In this document: positions 1,863 through 54,467 of the stretch, piece after piece
Layout: each line of letters starts with the position of its first letter
Numbering within the stretch: position 1 is the first letter of the stretch
DNA from: Pristionchus mayeri
Lineage: Eukaryota; Nematoda; Chromadorea; Rhabditida; Neodiplogasteridae
DNA: 64,000 nucleotides
Direction of reading: 5' to 3'
Assembly (NCBI GenBank): GCA_036245805.1
Contig: BTRK01000002.1
Location: 20,515,067 to 20,579,066 of the forward strand
Position numbers and translations under genes: made by a program
Notes under the pieces: generated by a model
What the model was told of the DNA's origin: nothing
Database searches by the model: none
Seen by the model: only the letters and a program-made list of their open reading frames with translations

Positions 1863-4800
1863 ATGCGGTTGATAGAGCCGTTGCTCATCTCTCTCGCCGT
1901 CTTCGCTGAGTTCGTGCTATCAGGACGTGATTTTTACAAGATCCTTGGCGTTTCCCGAAACGCAAACGCGAATCAGATCAAGAAAGCGTATCGGAAGCTT
2001 GCTAAAGAACTCCATCCCGATAAGCACCATGGAGATGAATCGGCTCACGAGAAGTTCCAAGACTTGGGAGCTGCTTATGAGGCCAGTTTTATTCTGTGAT
2101 TGTGATTGCCTATACGTTGACCTACTTCCGTTTATGCTCATTTTATTTAGGTCCTGAGTGATAAAGAAAAGCGAGCAATCTACGATAGATCTGGAGAAGA
2201 AGGTGTCAACAAAATGGGAAATGGAGGTGGAGGTACGTACATTTTCAAATGTCCTAAGTTATCGCTCTCGGTGTTCGTTCCCCAAATGCGCACAATCTCG
2301 TTCTCTGTGACGATAGGACCAGGCTATTGTGATTGTTTTGATATTACGTTGGTTATATATTTATTTTATCTGCGCTAGATGGCGCACGAGACGCAGATAA
2401 TTAATAATATGTTATGATACATAAAACAAACTATCTTAAAAAATCAACATCTCCAGCGACTTGGCACTGACCGAAAATTGGAATTCCTTCTGACTTCACC
2501 AATAGGTACTAGATAATCGACGAGGGAAACCGCATCGCCAGAATTTCGATCCGCATCAGCACACGCAGCTGCGTCGATCTTAAAAAAAAACTACAGTAAT
2601 CCTCTAAATTTTTTATATCAATTCCAATCACTGCTACGGGCACGGCCCCTTATTCGTCGACATTAGAAAACCTAATCCGCCTAATTTTTCTCGAACGGAA
2701 ATCGTTCAAACGTGCCTAAATTGACCCTGCCTCAGGAAATTGCGGGTCGCTTCAAAATTTACAGTATTTACACCTCTCCACGGCAATTTTTTTATCAACA
2801 CCCTGTTGAAAGAAATGGTCCCTTTCGCGAACATTTTTAAACACAGAAAGACTTGCTAAAAATAGGAATACATAGATTTTCTACAGTAGACATACAGTAT
2901 CTCTACAGTATATATTGCTACCTGATAAACAGCTAGGCATAGGTTGCCTGAGATACGGTACATTTAATTTGAAAAGTTACCATCGTGCAGGAACGTATAA
3001 TGCACCGCACTACCCTGATTGGCAATTTTTAGCGGACCATTTTTCTCTAGTGTGTTGATGAAAAAAATGCCGTGCCTCTCCTCTGCGTCTTTTGCCAAAT
3101 TTCAGTTTGCAATTCACTGCTAAATAGAGAATTGAAGAACACGGTCAAGTGGGCGGAGTTAGGCGGTCCGATTTTTCTAATGTCGACGGGCAAGGGACCG
3201 TGCTACGGGTCAATCGAATCGAGCTTGGTCTGATTTTACCTCCACGGCCCGTTAAAACCTCCGGGGTCAGAGCCGCAACGCGTAAGAAATGCGCGTGGAG
3301 TTCGCTGTAGCGAAATAATAATAATCCTAGGATTAATATTGGGTGAGCGTTCAATTTTTGGTTTAAAAAATATTATTTGTTTATATAATCTATTCCGCAG
3401 AAGCACAACGAATATTAATATTTCAAAAAAAGGTATACATGTACGTCATTTAGGCGAAAAAAATGGACAAAACTATGTTAGCTTTCGTACTCGCTGTCTT
3501 CAAATCGACAGAAGTCACTTCATTAAATATGTCTGGTCGTGAATTTACCATGTATACATTCTTACATACATGCCTCATAAAAGTTAGGTTCGAAAAAATA
3601 TAAATAATTTGATATACGTTAGTAAAACAGTCTAAAATGTCGTTTTGGATAGTTTTAAAAGAAATTTAAAAAGCGACAGAACTTGTTTGATTGCCACATT
3701 TACGCTAAATCGAGTATATATATGGATGCATAACGCAAGCGCCTATAAAAGTTTGGTTTGCATTAATTTAAAATAAATTTATTTTTTAAATTAAAAATCG
3801 AAAACTTCCAAAACAAGCGAAGTCCAGGTGCAGAGCCGGCACATGTTTTGTTAAAATTCATACAAATTATACCGTATTTTCTGCACTCCTAACAAAATAT
3901 TTTATTCGTGAACTGGTCCGCGTCACGGCCGCAACGCGGTTGTCTGACCGGACTCTTTTTCCACTGTTTAACGGGCCGTGACCTCCAAGAACGTTCAATT
4001 TTTTGATTCCATTCGAAATGGAGATTTTTTTCTCACTTTCGACAGCATAGTAATTTTTTATCTCGTCATTCCGGTCCGATATTTTCTATGAAAAGTTATG
4101 TTTTAGTAATTCATTTTTTTATAAAACAAAAATTCTGGCGATGCTGGTTGGTTTCCCTCGTCGAGTACTACCTATTGGTGAAGTTAGAAGGAATTCGCAT
4201 TTTCGGCCAGTGACAAGTCTATTTCGGCATTGTCTGATTGTGTTATAAATGATTGACCCTCCTCACACTGAGCATGAAAGTTGTCTACAATGGAGTCAAT
4301 AACGAATCTTCAGGAGGCCATGATCCTTTCTCGTCCTTCTTCGGTGATTTCTTTGGTGGCGGTGGAGGAGAAAGAGACGAGAGGATTCCACGGGTGCGTT
4401 TATTTAAATATTATCGTAATTTTCAGCAAGACATATTTCTCGGCTGTGTCGTAAAAAATGAGTGTATTTTCTTGCAGGGTGCGGACGTTGTGGTGGATCT
4501 ATGGGTTTCTCTTGAAGAACTCTACTCTGGACACTTTGTCGAAGTCAAAAGGAAAAAGGTAAATTTTCCACCACACTTGTCAGTTCACTATCTACTATTT
4601 CCCCATTAACCAAATATGACGCCGTATTTCTAAGGCTCGGACAATTCAGCGAGGACCTGGCACACCAATTTTTCGAAAATATGGTTTTCGGGGTTGTTTT
4701 CGACGCTGATGACGATGGTCAGCTTCATTTTGCATAGTTGACCTCTAATGACGCGCTGCGGCGCGCTCGGAATCGACGACTTTTCCGGTTCATTCTGTCG

Positions 4801-16471: not shown

Positions 16472-16981
16472 ATAGATATTTGACTCACCTACTTGATATC
16501 CCCTCGAATAAAAGTTCCTAGTTCTTCTCCATTCCCGACTGAGAAGCCCCTCAGATGCACATTGTGACGATGCAATGTCTCGCTCTCGTTTAAATATTTA
16601 TCAATCGAACATCTCCTAACAATGCATACCTATACAAACATTGATATTTCTCAAACAGGATTTAGGTCTTGCAGACAATTATTCACACATAAAAGTTCAG
16701 TCACATCAAGCTAGTTTATAGTCGTCAAGGGACGACGGGGCAGTCCAGTGAGGCAGACTGCTGAGATACATAGTCACTAGTATTCCATACTAATTAAAAG
16801 GATCTACAAATAGTAAAGAGCTTGAGTTGAGTGGCATCTTGGCACGAAATGAGGATACTGTAATAGAAGTATTGATTCACGAGGAATGGCTTTGATTTGC
16901 CTGGTAGTCACTGTAGATCCCTTCATCAGTTGCACTCGAATGGACACTGAGAGCGAGGGGACGAATAGGCTGCACTGCAAT
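16472..16981. other. Intergenic between convergent secreted-protein and Notch-like genes
   Basis: This is 510 bp holding the two 3' UTRs. No further gene is supported. Confidence 0.6.
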
Positions 16982-19442
16982 TCATTCCATCCCATCTTCC
17001 ACTTGGGGTTCAACCAGACCGTAAGTGTGATGGGAAGAAGATCCCATCGTGTCATCCTCCTTCACTGTCACTTCTTTCCATTTGTGCAGTCGCAGATTCT
17101 GAATCGATTGAGACTTCCATCGGACAATTTCTTACCTTGAGATAAGGGCGATTCTCGTCAGTTAATTCTCCCTCCGATACTCCTTTCAGAAGATTCGCCA
17201 TCTCGAAGAGGAATGATCGATGTCCTCTCCCCCCCTCACCTCTATCACCCCTCTGCTCCTCGCTAGATCCTCTGCTCTCTTCTTCTCTTTGTCCCTTCCC
17301 ATCTGCAATCCCATCCCGTAGTTCCTTCATTCCCTTCATCAGCTCACCACATTGCATTTCCCTCCTCTCATCATCATTTCCACTATCTCCATTCCACAGT
17401 ACTGCACTGCATAATGGAGAGGAGATCTTCCCCTATCGTCAACTGAATTCGCATCCGCACCTGCAATGATTCGGTTGAAAGGAGTAGGGTTCGCAATTCG
17501 AGAGCACGTAGTAAGACGGCATCTCCCTCCTCGGATAAGGGGAGGGGAGAGGCTACCCTGAATTGCCATCCCTAGAAAGGAGTTGTACCTCTCTCTAGAA
17601 GCAGCTCAATCTGCTCTCGGTGGTTGTTCATCACAGCGAGATGGAATGGAGATCGATGGCAGAGTAGGGGATCGTCTCCCTTTAATCATTACATGCACTA
17701 TTACCAACCTTCCTCCACTTCTTTTATCACATAAGCTAGCAAAAAACCGTCATAGTTCACTCCCCCCCCTCTCCATTTTTTTCGGTCTCAAACTACCCAC
17801 TCGTTATGCCCAGATTTACTCACATCCATTCCTCTCAAGTTTATATCCGCTCCACAATCAATCAATAATCGGGAGAAATCGGTCGACTCGTAACTCATCG
17901 ATAATTTCAGAGCACTCATGTTACGGTAATCGCAATGGTCGATCTGAGAGAGAGAGCCAACGAATGAATAGAAGAGGAAATACTGACCATTCTAAGTACG
18001 GTAGGGAACTCGAGAAGAGTAGAGAGGGTCTCTATCGAGGAAGAGGAGACTGCGAGATGCAGCAATGATTGGTGCTTGTCATCTACTATCGAAGGATCTG
18101 CACCCTCAAAGAAAGAAGGATGAGAGGGAGAGAGGGGAGGAGGAACCATCGAGAGAAGCCATCGGAGGAATGAGACTGGTCTGTGCATTATAGAGAGATG
18201 AAGGAGTGATCGACCATCTACAACCAGAGATTGCACTCCTCAAGGGAGAAAGAGATACCTCGATCTACAGTGTTGATTGACTCTCCACACTTGATGAGAG
18301 CCTTGATGTCTTCCTCTATGGATTGATTGGTAGAAGAGACGAGAGCATGGAGAGGAGAGTCCTGTCCCCTCTCTACTCTATTCACTTCATTCACCACTAG
18401 AGAGGAGCTGTGAATGGATGAGTCTCATCGTGGCCTCTCACCCCTTGCACTCTGCTCCTCATCGATGGATCCTTCCTTCGAAGACTTCCGTCCATGGAAG
18501 AAACAGATCAAAGCTGATGAAATATTGATTAGTTGAGAGATGAAGAGAGGATGGATACCCAATAGAAGGAGGGAGACTGCTAGGATGGGAAGGAAGAGGA
18601 AGGGAAGGGGAAGAGTCCATCCACTCTCTTCTCTCTTCCCGTACAGAAGGGAGAGCATGAAGGGAGACACACTCTACACCAGAATACTCTCACTAGTCTA
18701 TCAAAGACAACTCTGACCTCATCCCTCATCGACTGATACCATTGTCTCATCGATTCATCCAATTTCTTCATGCAGTCCTTCCAACAATCCATTCGTTTCA
18801 GAGAGAGCATTACTTGGATGGAAGAGATGTCAGGAGGATTCTGAGAGGACGATCAAATGGAGAGAATGAAGAGAACCCACTGGTTCTCTCTCAAGGTACA
18901 GTCTCCGATTTGGTCCCTTTTGAGGTGTCCATTCCCAGATGAGGAGATCGAGAGAATCACGAACTATCTCCACTCGACTACTGCAAGAGAAGGAGATGGA
19001 GATGGAGAGGGAGAGGGAGAGAGACATACCCAGTGATTGAGGAGATCTCGGAGAGAAAACGATGGGAGATGAACATAAAGTCAGGAGGAGAGATGTGAAG
19101 AGCCAGCATCAACTTCCCGTCGCTCTGTGAAGGGAAAGTGGAGAGTAGATAGGGAGGGGGAACCTCATTGATAGAGCCGCAGTCCCCTCCATCCAATCCA
19201 CACTCTGCACTACTGCACTCGAGATCGCAGAGATTGTCAGATGAAACCTCCCTGGAAGAAAAGGAAAGAGAAGGAGAGAGGGATGACATACCGACAGAAT
19301 ACCAAGTTGAAACAAGTAGGACGAATGGGGTAGATCAGATCTATGGGAAAGAATGAGGGGGGAGAAGGAATGAGATTGACTGACCTCGTCGTTGAGAAAG
19401 AATCGATGTTGATGAGGGGAGGAATAAAAGGAGAAGAAGCAT
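16982..19442 (-). CDS. Compact Notch-like receptor lacking EGF repeats
   Basis: Single-pass receptor of the Notch family. Seventeen exons: 19442-19385, 19340-19292, 19251-19164, 19124-19030, 18980-18881, 18840-18718, 18673-18559, 18513-18442, 18396-18259, 18217-18147, 18104-17988, 17943-17824, 17679-17589, 17460-17348, 17302-17240, 17201-17136, 17098-16982. They total 1596 nt (531 aa) and every junction phases. Order: signal peptide [19 protein letters not shown]; one LNR with six cysteines (PTCFNLVFC, NLCDLECSSAECGLDGGDC); NOD (GKLMLALHISPPDFMF); NODP (DCWKDCMKKL); transmembrane PFLFLPILAVSLLLLG; about seven ankyrin repeats, e.g. GADPSIVDDKHQSLLHLA and GADANSVDDRGRSPLHYAV; then a short tail. 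There are no EGF repeats, and a usual Notch has ten or more plus three LNRs. No W-x-P RAM motif is seen after the membrane. Confidence 0.88.
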
Positions 19443-19811: not shown

Positions 19812-20528
19812 TCATTTGGCCTTTCCTTCCTTCAAAGACTCTCTCAGTTGAGTGAAGAAAGCGGGCCGATTCTGAATGAGATGGAGAGAGGGAGAGGAGA
19901 GGGGAGAAACCTTGAGGAAGAGTTCAGCTGCATCCAGAGAGATCGGACGATTTGTGTCTGGCTCGATCAGATGCACCATCACATTCATGATCACTGTCCT
20001 CAATCAATATTCTATCACTACCGTACTCTCCTACCATTCTCGAGGGTGCAAGTGGCCTTCCAGTTGTCATAAGAGAGGATTGCAATGCACACTTCTCCTT
20101 CCTTATCCACATTCGGATGGACGATCTATCATCATCTCCTTTACTCTTCATTCACTTTCCTAGTCCTACCTTACTCTCGAACTTGATCTTGGGTGGTTTG
20201 AAAGGGTAATCGACTGAGAGATCAGCGATTAAGACAAACGGAAGGCCCTCCAGAGGAGCCGTCATCTGTTATTCTCACAGTATATCACCACAAATTACTC
20301 TATCTCTATCTCTTACGCATCGGCATTTGATTGTGAAGCTATGCTCCATCGTATGCTTATCGATCGATTCAACGATTGGATTCAAAGTGATAGAAAGTGT
20401 ACGAATTTCCTAAAATTACAATACCATGTCGAAATATATTTTAATGGAATCTAATATTCACCAACCTTTTCTACGCGCTGCTTGTGAACGTTTTTAGCAT
20501 AAGCGATTGCAGCTGTTGCACCGTCCAT
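19812..20528 (-). CDS. UBE2L3-like ubiquitin-conjugating enzyme E2
   Basis: Carries ubiquitin as a thioester for HECT/RBR ligases. Six exons: 20528-20466, 20409-20317, 20265-20170, 20125-20035, 19993-19911, 19871-19812. The sum is 486 nt, 161 aa, all in phase. Motifs: DYPFKPPKIKFESK, then VHPNVDKEGEVCIAIL with the catalytic Cys in GEVC, and NWKATCTLENVI. The HPN turn and F-K-P-P match UBE2L3 (UbcH7/UBC-18), as does the overall length (154 aa). The N-terminal half is divergent. The minus-strand position just upstream of the Notch-like gene (369 bp gap) closes off space for missing receptor exons. Confidence 0.88.
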
Positions 20529-52020: not shown

Positions 52021-54467
52021 CTATGTCATATTATTTATTGAGTCACAAAGCATCTTAAACATATCACAGAATGCTCTACTTTGATTAATACTTCCATTTG
52101 GAGTATCGGATTGAGGAATTGCTTGATATGAGATGTGTGCTTGGAAGATGCCATAGAGACTCCACGAGTGAAGGGAGAGACGATCTCCCTCTGAGATATA
52201 CCAGTAGGAGGGGAGATCATTCGTGCAGTGACTGAATGGAGTGAGTGGGGATGGAGCGAGGAACGGAAACTACCGTATCCCTCGGGGTCTCGCGTCCATC
52301 TTCCCTTTGACTTCGATGCCTGCATAGACACAAGAGGAGCTAAGTGCCCCTGCTAGTGCTTCTATTCTAATCTGGACTTTGTAACCAGGAGGAGACTGAA
52401 AAGGTTAGATGAGAGGAAGGAGTCTTCTTGAACCTCCTACCTTAAATAGATAGGAGCATGTATCGTAATCTGTCTGCATGGTCTTTGTGTTGTGCCCCAC
52501 TGAGATCTTCGTCTTCTGGATGGAATCACGGGCATCGAAGACGAGTAGACATCCATCTGGCTGAATGGAGAAGAGAGGATGAGGGAAGGGGGGGGGGGGA
52601 GGGAACTGACATCTCCTTCACAGTATCTTCCTCCGTATCCTTGAGGACAGAGACAACGACTGCATTCATTGACATCCTGCACTCCTCCATTGTGACAAGT
52701 GATGAGGATTCCCTCGCAGTCGGCTGGAGAGACAATGGAAGGTAGGAAGAAGGAAGGAAGAATACCATAGCACCCGTAGAATGTATTGATCAGAGCAGCA
52801 TCATAGAAGGACGGTAAATGACCTCCCATCGATTTCTGATAGACGGGGTCAGATGAGAGGAGGGTAGGCTGTCCATTTGATGAGAACCTGAGAAATGATG
52901 AGAAGTGGTGAGGGGAGAAGTGGAGTACAATGTATCTGAGTAGTGGAGGAGACTGCCGTATTCATACGGTATTCCGAGTGTGGAAGAGGTCGAATACTTC
53001 TCGAAGTCGTGTTCTGATCCAGGCTACGAGTTCAATGAAGGATATCAGGATGGATGGGAATATCCAACCATTATGTTCTCACTGAGAACAGTAACGTATG
53101 AATCTCGATCGTCTCTTGATTGAGTGTGAAATACTCCCAAAAGATGTTCCACTTCATGGATTACTGTACCCAACTGAAATTGATAATCACATTATTCCCA
53201 CCTTTTTATTATTGGTTGGTTAAATAATACTATATAACAAGCCTTCTGCAAGAATTAAGGAAATTGAGATACCACCAGATCAAATTAAATGCCACACTTT
53301 TCGTTGAAACTTAGTTTATTGATATTATTGTGGGTCGGAACAAGACATATCAACCTTTTTTTATTCCCTACTAAATCGATATTCTAGAGCAAGAGATTTG
53401 GAAAATGGTAGATATTCCTCAACATATTTTGATCGTAGCATCCAACGGTGAAAAAATATCGTGTGGGGATATACATTTTTCTCTCAATAAAATGCGATTG
53501 AGTTGAGTTATAATATGCAGAAGCGATAGGTAAAAAAATCGAGAAGATGCAAATTTGACCAAATCATGTTGATAAGTCGTGTTCCGATCACAAAATAGTA
53601 TAGGTATACTAAGTTTCAATGAGATTTATGAAACTGAATATTTTTTGTGGAATATATTCCCTCATTAAGACAATGAAGCACGTCTCCATTTTTAACGGGA
53701 ATGAACTTACAGACTTGCATGAATCTGCCAGACTCATCGTCTGATCTCCACCAACTCTCCCTACTGTAGATGAACAGCCCTCGTTCGCGTAGATGGAGAC
53801 TCTGTTGAATAGCTGAATTGGAGTGAGTGACTCACTTCCCAGACCTGTCCTTCCCCTTGCCGTCTTCAATTAATCGAACACAAGTGAGATTCTGCCAGTG
53901 ATGGATGGCATTGTGGAGAGTCTCCCTTACATGGTCACCTGACTTCAACTCCTTTGAGTAGCATGAACCTATATACTAACTGATGTTGTATATGGAATAG
54001 GGTATGGGATCCCTTCCCCAAGAAGAAGCCAGATGAGTCACTGCTTGTCGAGTGGATCGATGCCCACTCTTGTGAGTGGAAATGAGCGACGTTAGTTGTT
54101 CACTTCGAGATTGATTAAGGATAGAAGAAGGATAATGATTACTCAGTCAGTTGAATATCTCCTTCGAAGAGTGAACTAGTGAGACCGCCTATTCGGTTGG
54201 TTCGTGATATCTCACTTTCCAGCATATCTGAGTGCATCGGCTGTAATCAAGATTCCATTTCTTGATTAGTGACCCTCTGACTTCTCTGAGCAAAGGTTGA
54301 CGACTGGGATCGAAGTCAGTATCCCATTTGGCCATCTCATCTTGGAATCGAGATAAACGAAGTCTCTGAAGAGTTAAAAATGGGATATTGAAAACGAGAA
54401 GCGAACTAACTGGATTGGCGATGACAGAAAATACTAAGCAGGAGATGTGGACTGAGATTCGTGCCAT
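52021..54467 (-). CDS. Astacin-family zinc metalloprotease (NAS type) with EGF and CUB
   Basis: Secreted protease. The N-terminal exon encodes MARISVHISCLVFSVIA, a signal peptide, then a prodomain with LFEGDIQLTE. Catalytic exons: WGRDPIPYSIYN; a helix HVRETLHNAIHHW; ANEGCSSTVGRVGGDQTMSL; then the zinc motif at about 53172-53105, IHEVEHLLGVFHTQSRDDRD; and the Met-turn region YEYGSLLHYS. Then come an EGF-like module (CHNGGVQDVNECSRCLCPQG, then YGGRYC, about 52720-52615) and a CUB domain ending at the stop at 52021. The three zinc His and catalytic Glu are intact, but the residue after the third His is Thr instead of the usual Glu. The 53.2-53.7 kb intron is the longest. C. elegans has about 40 NAS genes; I cannot assign which. 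Confidence 0.88.

Follow-up and report, generated by a model that had tools for sequence, protein, structure and literature searches.

Receptors of the LIN-12/GLP-1/Notch type bind DSL ligands through EGF repeats. A broad survey puts the number of these repeats at 10 for Caenorhabditis and up to 36 for humans (PMC2770060). In human Notch1, according to another study, a void above helix 3 with walls of alanine and glycine is filled by the linker between LNR-A and LNR-B (AB linker), and the receptor is more readily activated without ligand once LNR-A, the AB linker, and LNR-B have been removed (PMC3145759). Binding of the Notch intracellular domain to CSL is described in part of a review as occurring predominantly via RAM and less via the ankyrin domain (ANK), whereas MAML1 requires ANK (PMC3415683). 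Here, we describe mini-Notch, a conserved Notch-derived gene of Pristionchus nematodes. It was found on the (-) strand of a 64,000-nucleotide stretch of the P. mayeri genome (the window; contig C2, 20515067–20579066), and the coordinates of the gene and its neighbors are given as positions in this window. Mini-Notch resembles LIN-12/GLP-1/Notch in that a signal peptide, LNR, probable heterodimerization region, single membrane span, and seven ankyrin repeats follow each other in the same order. It differs in that it has one LNR instead of three and lacks a post-ankyrin basic run. Judged from sequence, its product also has neither the DSL-binding EGF repeats nor the RAM tryptophan motif through which the Notch fragment docks on CSL/LAG-1.

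The first-pass annotation had proposed 17 exons and 531 codons for this gene, and both counts were reproduced when exons were joined by hand at GT-AG introns, with the ATG at 19442 as the start. Exons 1–16, and exon 17 up to position 17020, matched the annotated P. mayeri protein PMAYCL1PPCAC_06877 (P0001; 100% identity in the protein search, flagged as partial). The stop at 16982, however, was wrong, as this position lies in an intron (17019–16975). This intron is followed by an exon (16974–16901), a GC-AG intron (16900–16858), and the terminal exon (16857–16804). The corrected model has 19 exons and encodes 561 aa, with the stop at 16804. It is identical to P0001 from residue 6 of the latter, which begins 5 residues ahead of ATG 19442. 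The corrected C-terminus, ending in HSTQALYYL, is conserved in the P. entomophagus protein (P0003) and absent from that of P. pacificus (P0002). The label of P0001 contains the PPCAC name; in the PPCAC pipeline, homology models based on P. pacificus are combined with open reading frames seen as transcripts in RNA-seq of mixed stages (PMC7992802). The partial 5' start of P0001 and the lack of its C-terminus in the P. pacificus protein suggest that P0001 is a transcript-based model.

Exon 1 (19442–19385) encodes the signal peptide, which was recognized by hydropathy only, with a hydrophobic N-terminus in all three orthologues in which the N-terminus is intact. Exons 2 and 3 (19340–19292 and 19251–19164) encode a six-cysteine LNR, which is nearest to human LNR-C in the Notch1 alignment and scored 29.5 bits with Pfam family PF00066 (cut-off 21.2 bits). 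The single LNR reported earlier was confirmed: one LNR exceeded the Pfam cut-off in each of the three mini-Notch proteins with a readable N-terminus, compared to the classical three, and a corrected LNR pattern found exactly one in the window, that of mini-Notch itself. Exons 4 and 5 (19124–19030 and 18980–18881) correspond to NOD, the first half of the heterodimerization domain (HD). NOD (PF06816, cut-off 20 bits) scored 14 bits in P. mayeri and 13–14 bits in two of the four mini-Notch proteins, and was not listed for the other two. Exon 6 (18840–18718) encodes an NODP-like region with two conserved cysteines, identified by alignment to the proteins of a second reduced form, midi-Notch (see below); no Pfam match to NODP was obtained up to E 1. 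Exons 7 and 8 (18673–18559 and 18513–18442) encode the presumed S2-bearing stalk, the membrane span (hydropathy maximum 2.93), and a juxtamembrane segment. The ankyrin repeats are encoded by exons 9–15 (18396–17240), where five Pfam Ank families matched with E values of 1e-26 to 1e-12. Exons 16–19 (17201–17136, 17098–17020, 16974–16901, and 16857–16804) encode the end of the seventh repeat and a C-terminal tail, with a translation equal to P0001. Hydropathy profiles are consistent with a type I topology with signal peptide, showing the N-terminal stretch in 3/3 and one further span in 4/4 mini-Notch proteins; the P. pacificus protein has an additional weak peak at residues 334–354.

The relation of the ectodomain to Notch was apparent when residues 1–219, which precede the membrane span, were compared to the PDB. 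Seven sequences were matched at E ≤0.001, and all were human Notch NRRs (negative regulatory regions): Notch1 with E values of 1e-11 to 5e-11, Notch2 with 5e-9, and Notch3 with 2e-9 and 4e-8. The best Notch1 stretch comprised LNR-C plus NOD. A profile built from mini- and midi-Notch gave eight PDB matches at the same threshold, the seven Notch sequences and one pappalysin. The evidence on the NOD/NODP assignment of the first-pass annotation was mixed: the phmmer match to human Notch NRRs (E 1e-11) extends into NOD, but with Pfam NOD stayed below the cut-off and NODP was not recognized. Because the NRR is matched and introns are shared with the RAM-bearing midi-Notch genes, both NRR and gene structure point to shared ancestry with the Notch family. 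The suggestion that the NRR could be weakened also remained plausible, since mini-Notch lacks LNR-A, the AB linker, and LNR-B, the parts whose removal eases ligand-independent activation of human Notch1. An AlphaFold2 model based on six sequences had a mean predicted local distance difference test score (pLDDT) of 61, with residues 1–72 and 172–204 below 50, and at this pLDDT the packing of the LNR and the exposure of S2 could not be judged. The Foldseek and VIA-align lists were dominated by ankyrin-fold chains and were uninformative on the NRR.

Relatives were found in three further Pristionchus species. The protein search returned three proteins among 964 candidates, namely P0001 and the proteins of P. 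pacificus (473 aa; gene PRIPAC_88740) and P. entomophagus (581 aa). An alignment search, in which the best 7994 candidates by word sharing were scored within length limits, returned five, adding a P. mayeri fragment (P0007) and the P. fissidentatus protein PFISCL1PPCAC_28727 (P0008). In the P. pacificus and P. entomophagus proteins, a hydrophobic leader runs straight into the LNR. The P. fissidentatus protein is annotated without an LNR. When its first residues were treated as a shifted reading, 22 of 24 orthologue residues were attainable with the best codon choice and all fixed LNR positions were kept, while none of 5000 shuffles could yield the fixed positions. This test used the LNR signature only and superseded an earlier one, which had been negative but had required residues not constant between the orthologues. 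The public P. fissidentatus gene model appears to misread the LNR exon in the wrong frame and so conceal the domain. According to PMC11544036, P. fissidentatus is a basal species; because it carries a relative, the mini-Notch gene probably predates the sampled Pristionchus radiation. No relative outside Pristionchus was returned by a search that needs shared 5-residue words, which remote relatives may escape. Within the P. mayeri genome (290.8 Mb, 73 contigs), the first 450 residues gave ten matches, nine of them within the mini-Notch gene and the tenth a weak ankyrin match with two stops on contig C6.

The LNR is the most conserved domain of mini-Notch, with 88–91% protein identity between species (three pairs, P. 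fissidentatus excluded). Over six pairs each, identities were 62–80% in NOD, 62–69% in ANK, 48–58% in NODP, 25–41% in the juxtamembrane segment, and 17–52% in the stalk and span. Because the LNR is conserved between species, this pattern argues for a working, folded remnant of the NRR.

We also considered that mini-Notch could be an artefact, i.e., a truncated model, a pseudogene, or a gene whose EGF exons are concealed upstream or in an assembly gap. Such a reading could draw on the partial flag of the annotated protein and on the low Pfam scores of NOD and NODP. Against it, the models of two further species begin alike, all 19 exons are open, and there is no N anywhere in the window. The stop of the same-strand gene upstream lies 369 bases from the mini-Notch ATG and bounds the 5' end, which bears out the earlier statement that there is no room for missing EGF exons. 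This neighbor (19812–20528, (-) strand, ATG 20528, 161-residue spliced translation) is a putative E2 ubiquitin-conjugating enzyme gene, named as such in the first-pass annotation. No Pfam EGF match was found in the P. mayeri, P. pacificus, and P. entomophagus proteins, in which there is no space between leader and LNR. On the gene strand of the window, no EGF pattern match lies closer than 33 kb to the gene; the same patterns detected EGF units in three control loci (L009, L011, and L012). The absence of EGF repeats was thereby supported. Because of the close neighbor, the lack of a nearby EGF pattern, and the like starts in two other species, hidden upstream EGF exons or a pseudogene are unlikely. 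The artefact reading is largely refuted and its probability very small; that the gene, its architecture, and its conservation are real is nearly certain.

The one plausible EGF unit on the (-) strand of the window, at 52.6 kb and 33 kb upstream of mini-Notch, stands beside a zinc-protease motif that we take to be typical of astacins. Both may belong to one astacin-like zinc protease gene at 52300–53600 (-). Between 21400 and 22500, upstream of the E2-like gene, there are repeated AT-rich segments whose shared words occur both as direct and as inverted copies, possibly as part of a mobile element.

The intracellular half had been taken for that of an ordinary Notch, and this description did not hold. 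About seven ankyrin repeats are present, as in Notch/LIN-12 receptors, and the structural model predicted seven ankyrin helix pairs, mostly with pLDDT 70–95. However, the RAM phi-W-phi-P pattern was not found after the membrane span in any of the four mini-Notch proteins. The sole pattern match in P0001, EWTP at residue 118, is extracellular. All three database midi-Notch proteins have IWFP or VWFP shortly after the membrane. When compared to 177,635 PDB sequences at E ≤10, the midi-Notch juxtamembrane segment matched solely the LIN-12 RAM peptide of 3BRD, weakly (E 0.37), while the P. pacificus mini-Notch segment gave no RAM and one unrelated chain at E 0.51. Near the RAM position, the P. fissidentatus and P. 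pacificus mini-Notch proteins have an aromatic-acid-aliphatic-proline sequence (FEIP and YDLP, respectively), perhaps a RAM remnant. A post-ankyrin basic run (best 7-mer with 5–6 K/R) is present in all three midi-Notch proteins and was not found in the two mini-Notch proteins with a C-terminus (P. mayeri and P. entomophagus). Because both the RAM motif and this basic run are absent, usual signaling through LAG-1 may be beyond a mini-Notch fragment even if it is released constitutively. The C-termini differ in further motifs: the midi-Notch proteins carry DQGYGSEES after the basic run and SFG(L/I)P(N/K)W near the C-terminus, and the P. mayeri and P. entomophagus mini-Notch proteins have TDEG(I/V)YSDYQ in place of these.

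The midi-Notch class, which is previously unreported, comprises proteins of P. fissidentatus (P0004), P. pacificus (P0005), and P. mayeri (P0006, encoded at locus L014), each with two LNRs by Pfam, and a second P. mayeri gene at locus L015 on contig C4. No midi-Notch was returned for P. entomophagus (three proteins among 5510 candidates). The LNR pair aligns to human LNR-B plus LNR-C in the mini/midi profile. By pattern, the midi-Notch proteins have a six-cysteine EGF-like unit after the leader, although Pfam reports no EGF. Mini-Notch has none of the EGF-like unit, RAM motif, and basic run of midi-Notch, and one LNR instead of two. The second P. mayeri gene (L015:3746–6467) has two LNRs, and its RAM motif can be read, but its annotation is limited to the 183-aa partial protein P0007.

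Mini- and midi-Notch share their exon plan. Eleven of the 18 introns of the mini-Notch model, including the one that splits the LNR, are matched in each of the two P. mayeri midi-Notch genes by an intron of identical phase at the same column of the alignment. Elsewhere, four introns coincide with the mini-Notch model in the L011 model, three in L009, and none in L016. Shared introns alone point to mini- and midi-Notch being nearer to each other, and a single deletion from intron 1 into exon 4 of a midi-like gene would yield the mini-Notch ectodomain. A tree of 11 rows placed the mini-Notch proteins on one side of a branch (100/100), and the order of mini-Notch, midi-Notch, and canonical receptors was not resolved (82/86; midi-Notch 54/50 without the long L016 row). 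The canonical rows in this tree are local spliced-alignment models with spurious pieces. Stepwise loss is thus not demonstrated by this tree.

Seven other loci with Notch-type LNR matches (eight matches) were found in P. mayeri. They lie on contig C1 at 1.55 Mb (L016), 20.79 Mb (L009), and 20.81 Mb (L011), on C4 at 21.44 Mb (L015), and on C6 at 20.62 Mb (L012), 30.21 Mb (L014), and 57.07 Mb (L013). L009 and L011 form a pair on opposite strands with ~17 kb between their LNR matches. A further NOD match above the cut-off was observed on C6 at 20.60 Mb. C. elegans has two Notch genes, and by comparison the P. mayeri set is an expansion. The three LNRs against which mini-Notch had been measured proved a poor yardstick within this genome. 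L011, the best-read EGF-bearing locus, shows two LNRs (3668–4069 of the locus) that by eye resemble human LNR-A and LNR-B, L009 shows one clear LNR and a first one that looks degenerate (6749–6203), and the midi-Notch proteins have two; at L009 and L011, pattern counts would miss intron-split LNRs. The RAM motif was found in its expected context on the gene strand in four of the seven loci (L009, APEWTPP; L011, APVWIPP; L014, APVWFPP; L015, APVWTPP).

The search of the same genome for full-length lin-12/glp-1 homologues, proposed earlier, led to EGF-bearing Notch loci, with EGF units in L009, L011, and L012, alongside four DSL-domain matches. Because such loci and DSL-domain matches are present, the canonical pathway is available for modulation. 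The EGF-bearing loci also favor the reading that mini-Notch is an ectodomain decoy or co-receptor, which would dimerize via LNR/HD with full-length LIN-12/GLP-1-type receptors and alter their cleavage. The conservation of LNR and NOD, but not of the juxtamembrane segment, fits this reading as well, but it leaves the ankyrin conservation of 62–69% unexplained, and we know of no dimer interface for LNR-C. We regard this reading as quite improbable.

The HD void described for human Notch1 was compared between the classes. Its four positions, counted ungapped from the second NODP cysteine, are L R Y M, V K Y I, V R Y I, and I R Y I in the mini-Notch proteins, while the human Notch1 residues are presumably A A G A. 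In the midi-Notch proteins they are I E D L, I G D L, I G E I, and L R A L, in the L011 model A L G E, and in L009 I Q E E. The bulky mini-Notch residues could fill the HD void from within.

These residues bear on two readings. In one, mini-Notch is a constitutively cleaved Notch, in which S2 is exposed without LNR-A, the AB linker, and LNR-B, and the freed intracellular domain activates LAG-1 targets via its ankyrin repeats at a dosage set by transcription. Mini-Notch is indeed the natural equivalent of Notch1 lacking these three elements. However, mini-Notch has neither the RAM motif nor the post-ankyrin basic run, and the bulky residues (L/V/I, Y, and M/I) at three of the four void positions in all four mini-Notch proteins could stabilize the closed state, if the human residues are as we take them to be. 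Constitutive cleavage is unlikely. In the other reading, mini-Notch is a receptor for a different cue, such as another ligand or a membrane or matrix force, and the LNR-C/HD switch is autoinhibited and self-plugged by bulky side chains of the third HD helix. The high LNR conservation, a WY pair that is invariant in all four mini-Notch proteins, and the bulky hydrophobics at the alanine/glycine void positions described in part of PMC3145759 agree with this. On the other hand, the change is not wholly specific, as the midi-Notch proteins are bulky at the first and fourth positions and the L009 model at one; there is no partner domain outside the LNR, and the structural model is unreliable in the HD region. 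A receptor for a different cue seems improbable.

The best overall explanation, which we consider somewhat probable, is that mini-Notch is a Notch-derived, protease-releasable ankyrin module that is uncoupled from DSL ligand and RAM docking and probably acts as a modulator. The LNR-C/HD unit would be a protease-sensitive stub that is cut by ADAM and gamma-secretase without DSL pulling. The ankyrin domain, released or tethered, would then modulate rather than serve as a stand-alone transcription switch. It might compete in or attenuate the LAG-1/Notch/SEL-8 complexes of full receptors in the manner of NRARP, or alternatively act by a CSL-independent route. A modulator is favored because RAM has been lost together with the parts that restrain DSL-free activation; as a mechanism, it falls just short of an even call. 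NRARP is a small ankyrin protein that acts on the CSL/Notch complex. Its proposed likeness to mini-Notch is one of working only, an ankyrin module acting on this complex, and mini-Notch differs in being a membrane protein with LNR/HD. The RBPJ-NOTCH1 complex with NRARP (6py8) was among the structural matches of mini-Notch, as were many ankyrin proteins.

Several observations weigh against the module explanation. Since an ankyrin domain can take part in CSL/Mastermind complexes by itself, RAM loss need not abolish LAG-1 signaling. RAM loss may not be special to mini-Notch, as the pattern was also not found in three of the seven other loci (L012, L013, and L016, whose genes are incompletely modelled; L016 has only an unrelated-looking IWLP far downstream), which may have lost RAM as well. 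P0001 contains RDKEKKR (5/7 basic) within its last repeat and the P. fissidentatus protein RRRKR at the membrane, and given these motifs mini-Notch might still be imported into the nucleus. The strong LNR conservation could fit equally well if the receptor were tightly autoinhibited and had a new ligand. Lastly, the lack of Pfam recognition of NODP and the low confidence of the LNR in the AlphaFold2 model count on the same side. A broader reading is offered tentatively: within a single genus, Notch may have been dismantled from either end, and two grades of this reduction stand side by side in one genome. In the mini form, the conserved LNR-C/HD switch may gate an output that is new and either attenuating or independent of CSL, and a self-plugged HD may have taken the place of the LNR-AB plug.

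A search of open-licence PMC papers found no report of an EGF-less nematode Notch or of this gene. Caenorhabditis Notch genes are known to duplicate and to vary in EGF number from a study that, in the part concerned, dropped sequences <700 aa (PMC6457397), and the broad survey took LNR, EGF, and ANK as diagnostic of Notch in the section cited (PMC2770060). Both designs would exclude or miss a gene like mini-Notch, owing to the length filter and the EGF requirement, respectively. The engineered human Notch1 without LNR-A, the AB linker, and LNR-B retains the same part of the NRR as mini-Notch, whereas mini-Notch is a natural gene in four species and is also RAM-less. The Notch architecture needed for autoinhibition and output has so far been probed by engineered deletions; here, evolution made and retained deletions, leaving one LNR in mini-Notch and two in midi-Notch, each form with its own intracellular half. 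P. pacificus carries both forms, and CRISPR is said to work robustly in this species in part of PMC11544036. Ligand-free regulation, a minimal LNR/HD unit, and RAM-free output are therefore open to direct tests in a whole organism that also has intact receptors.
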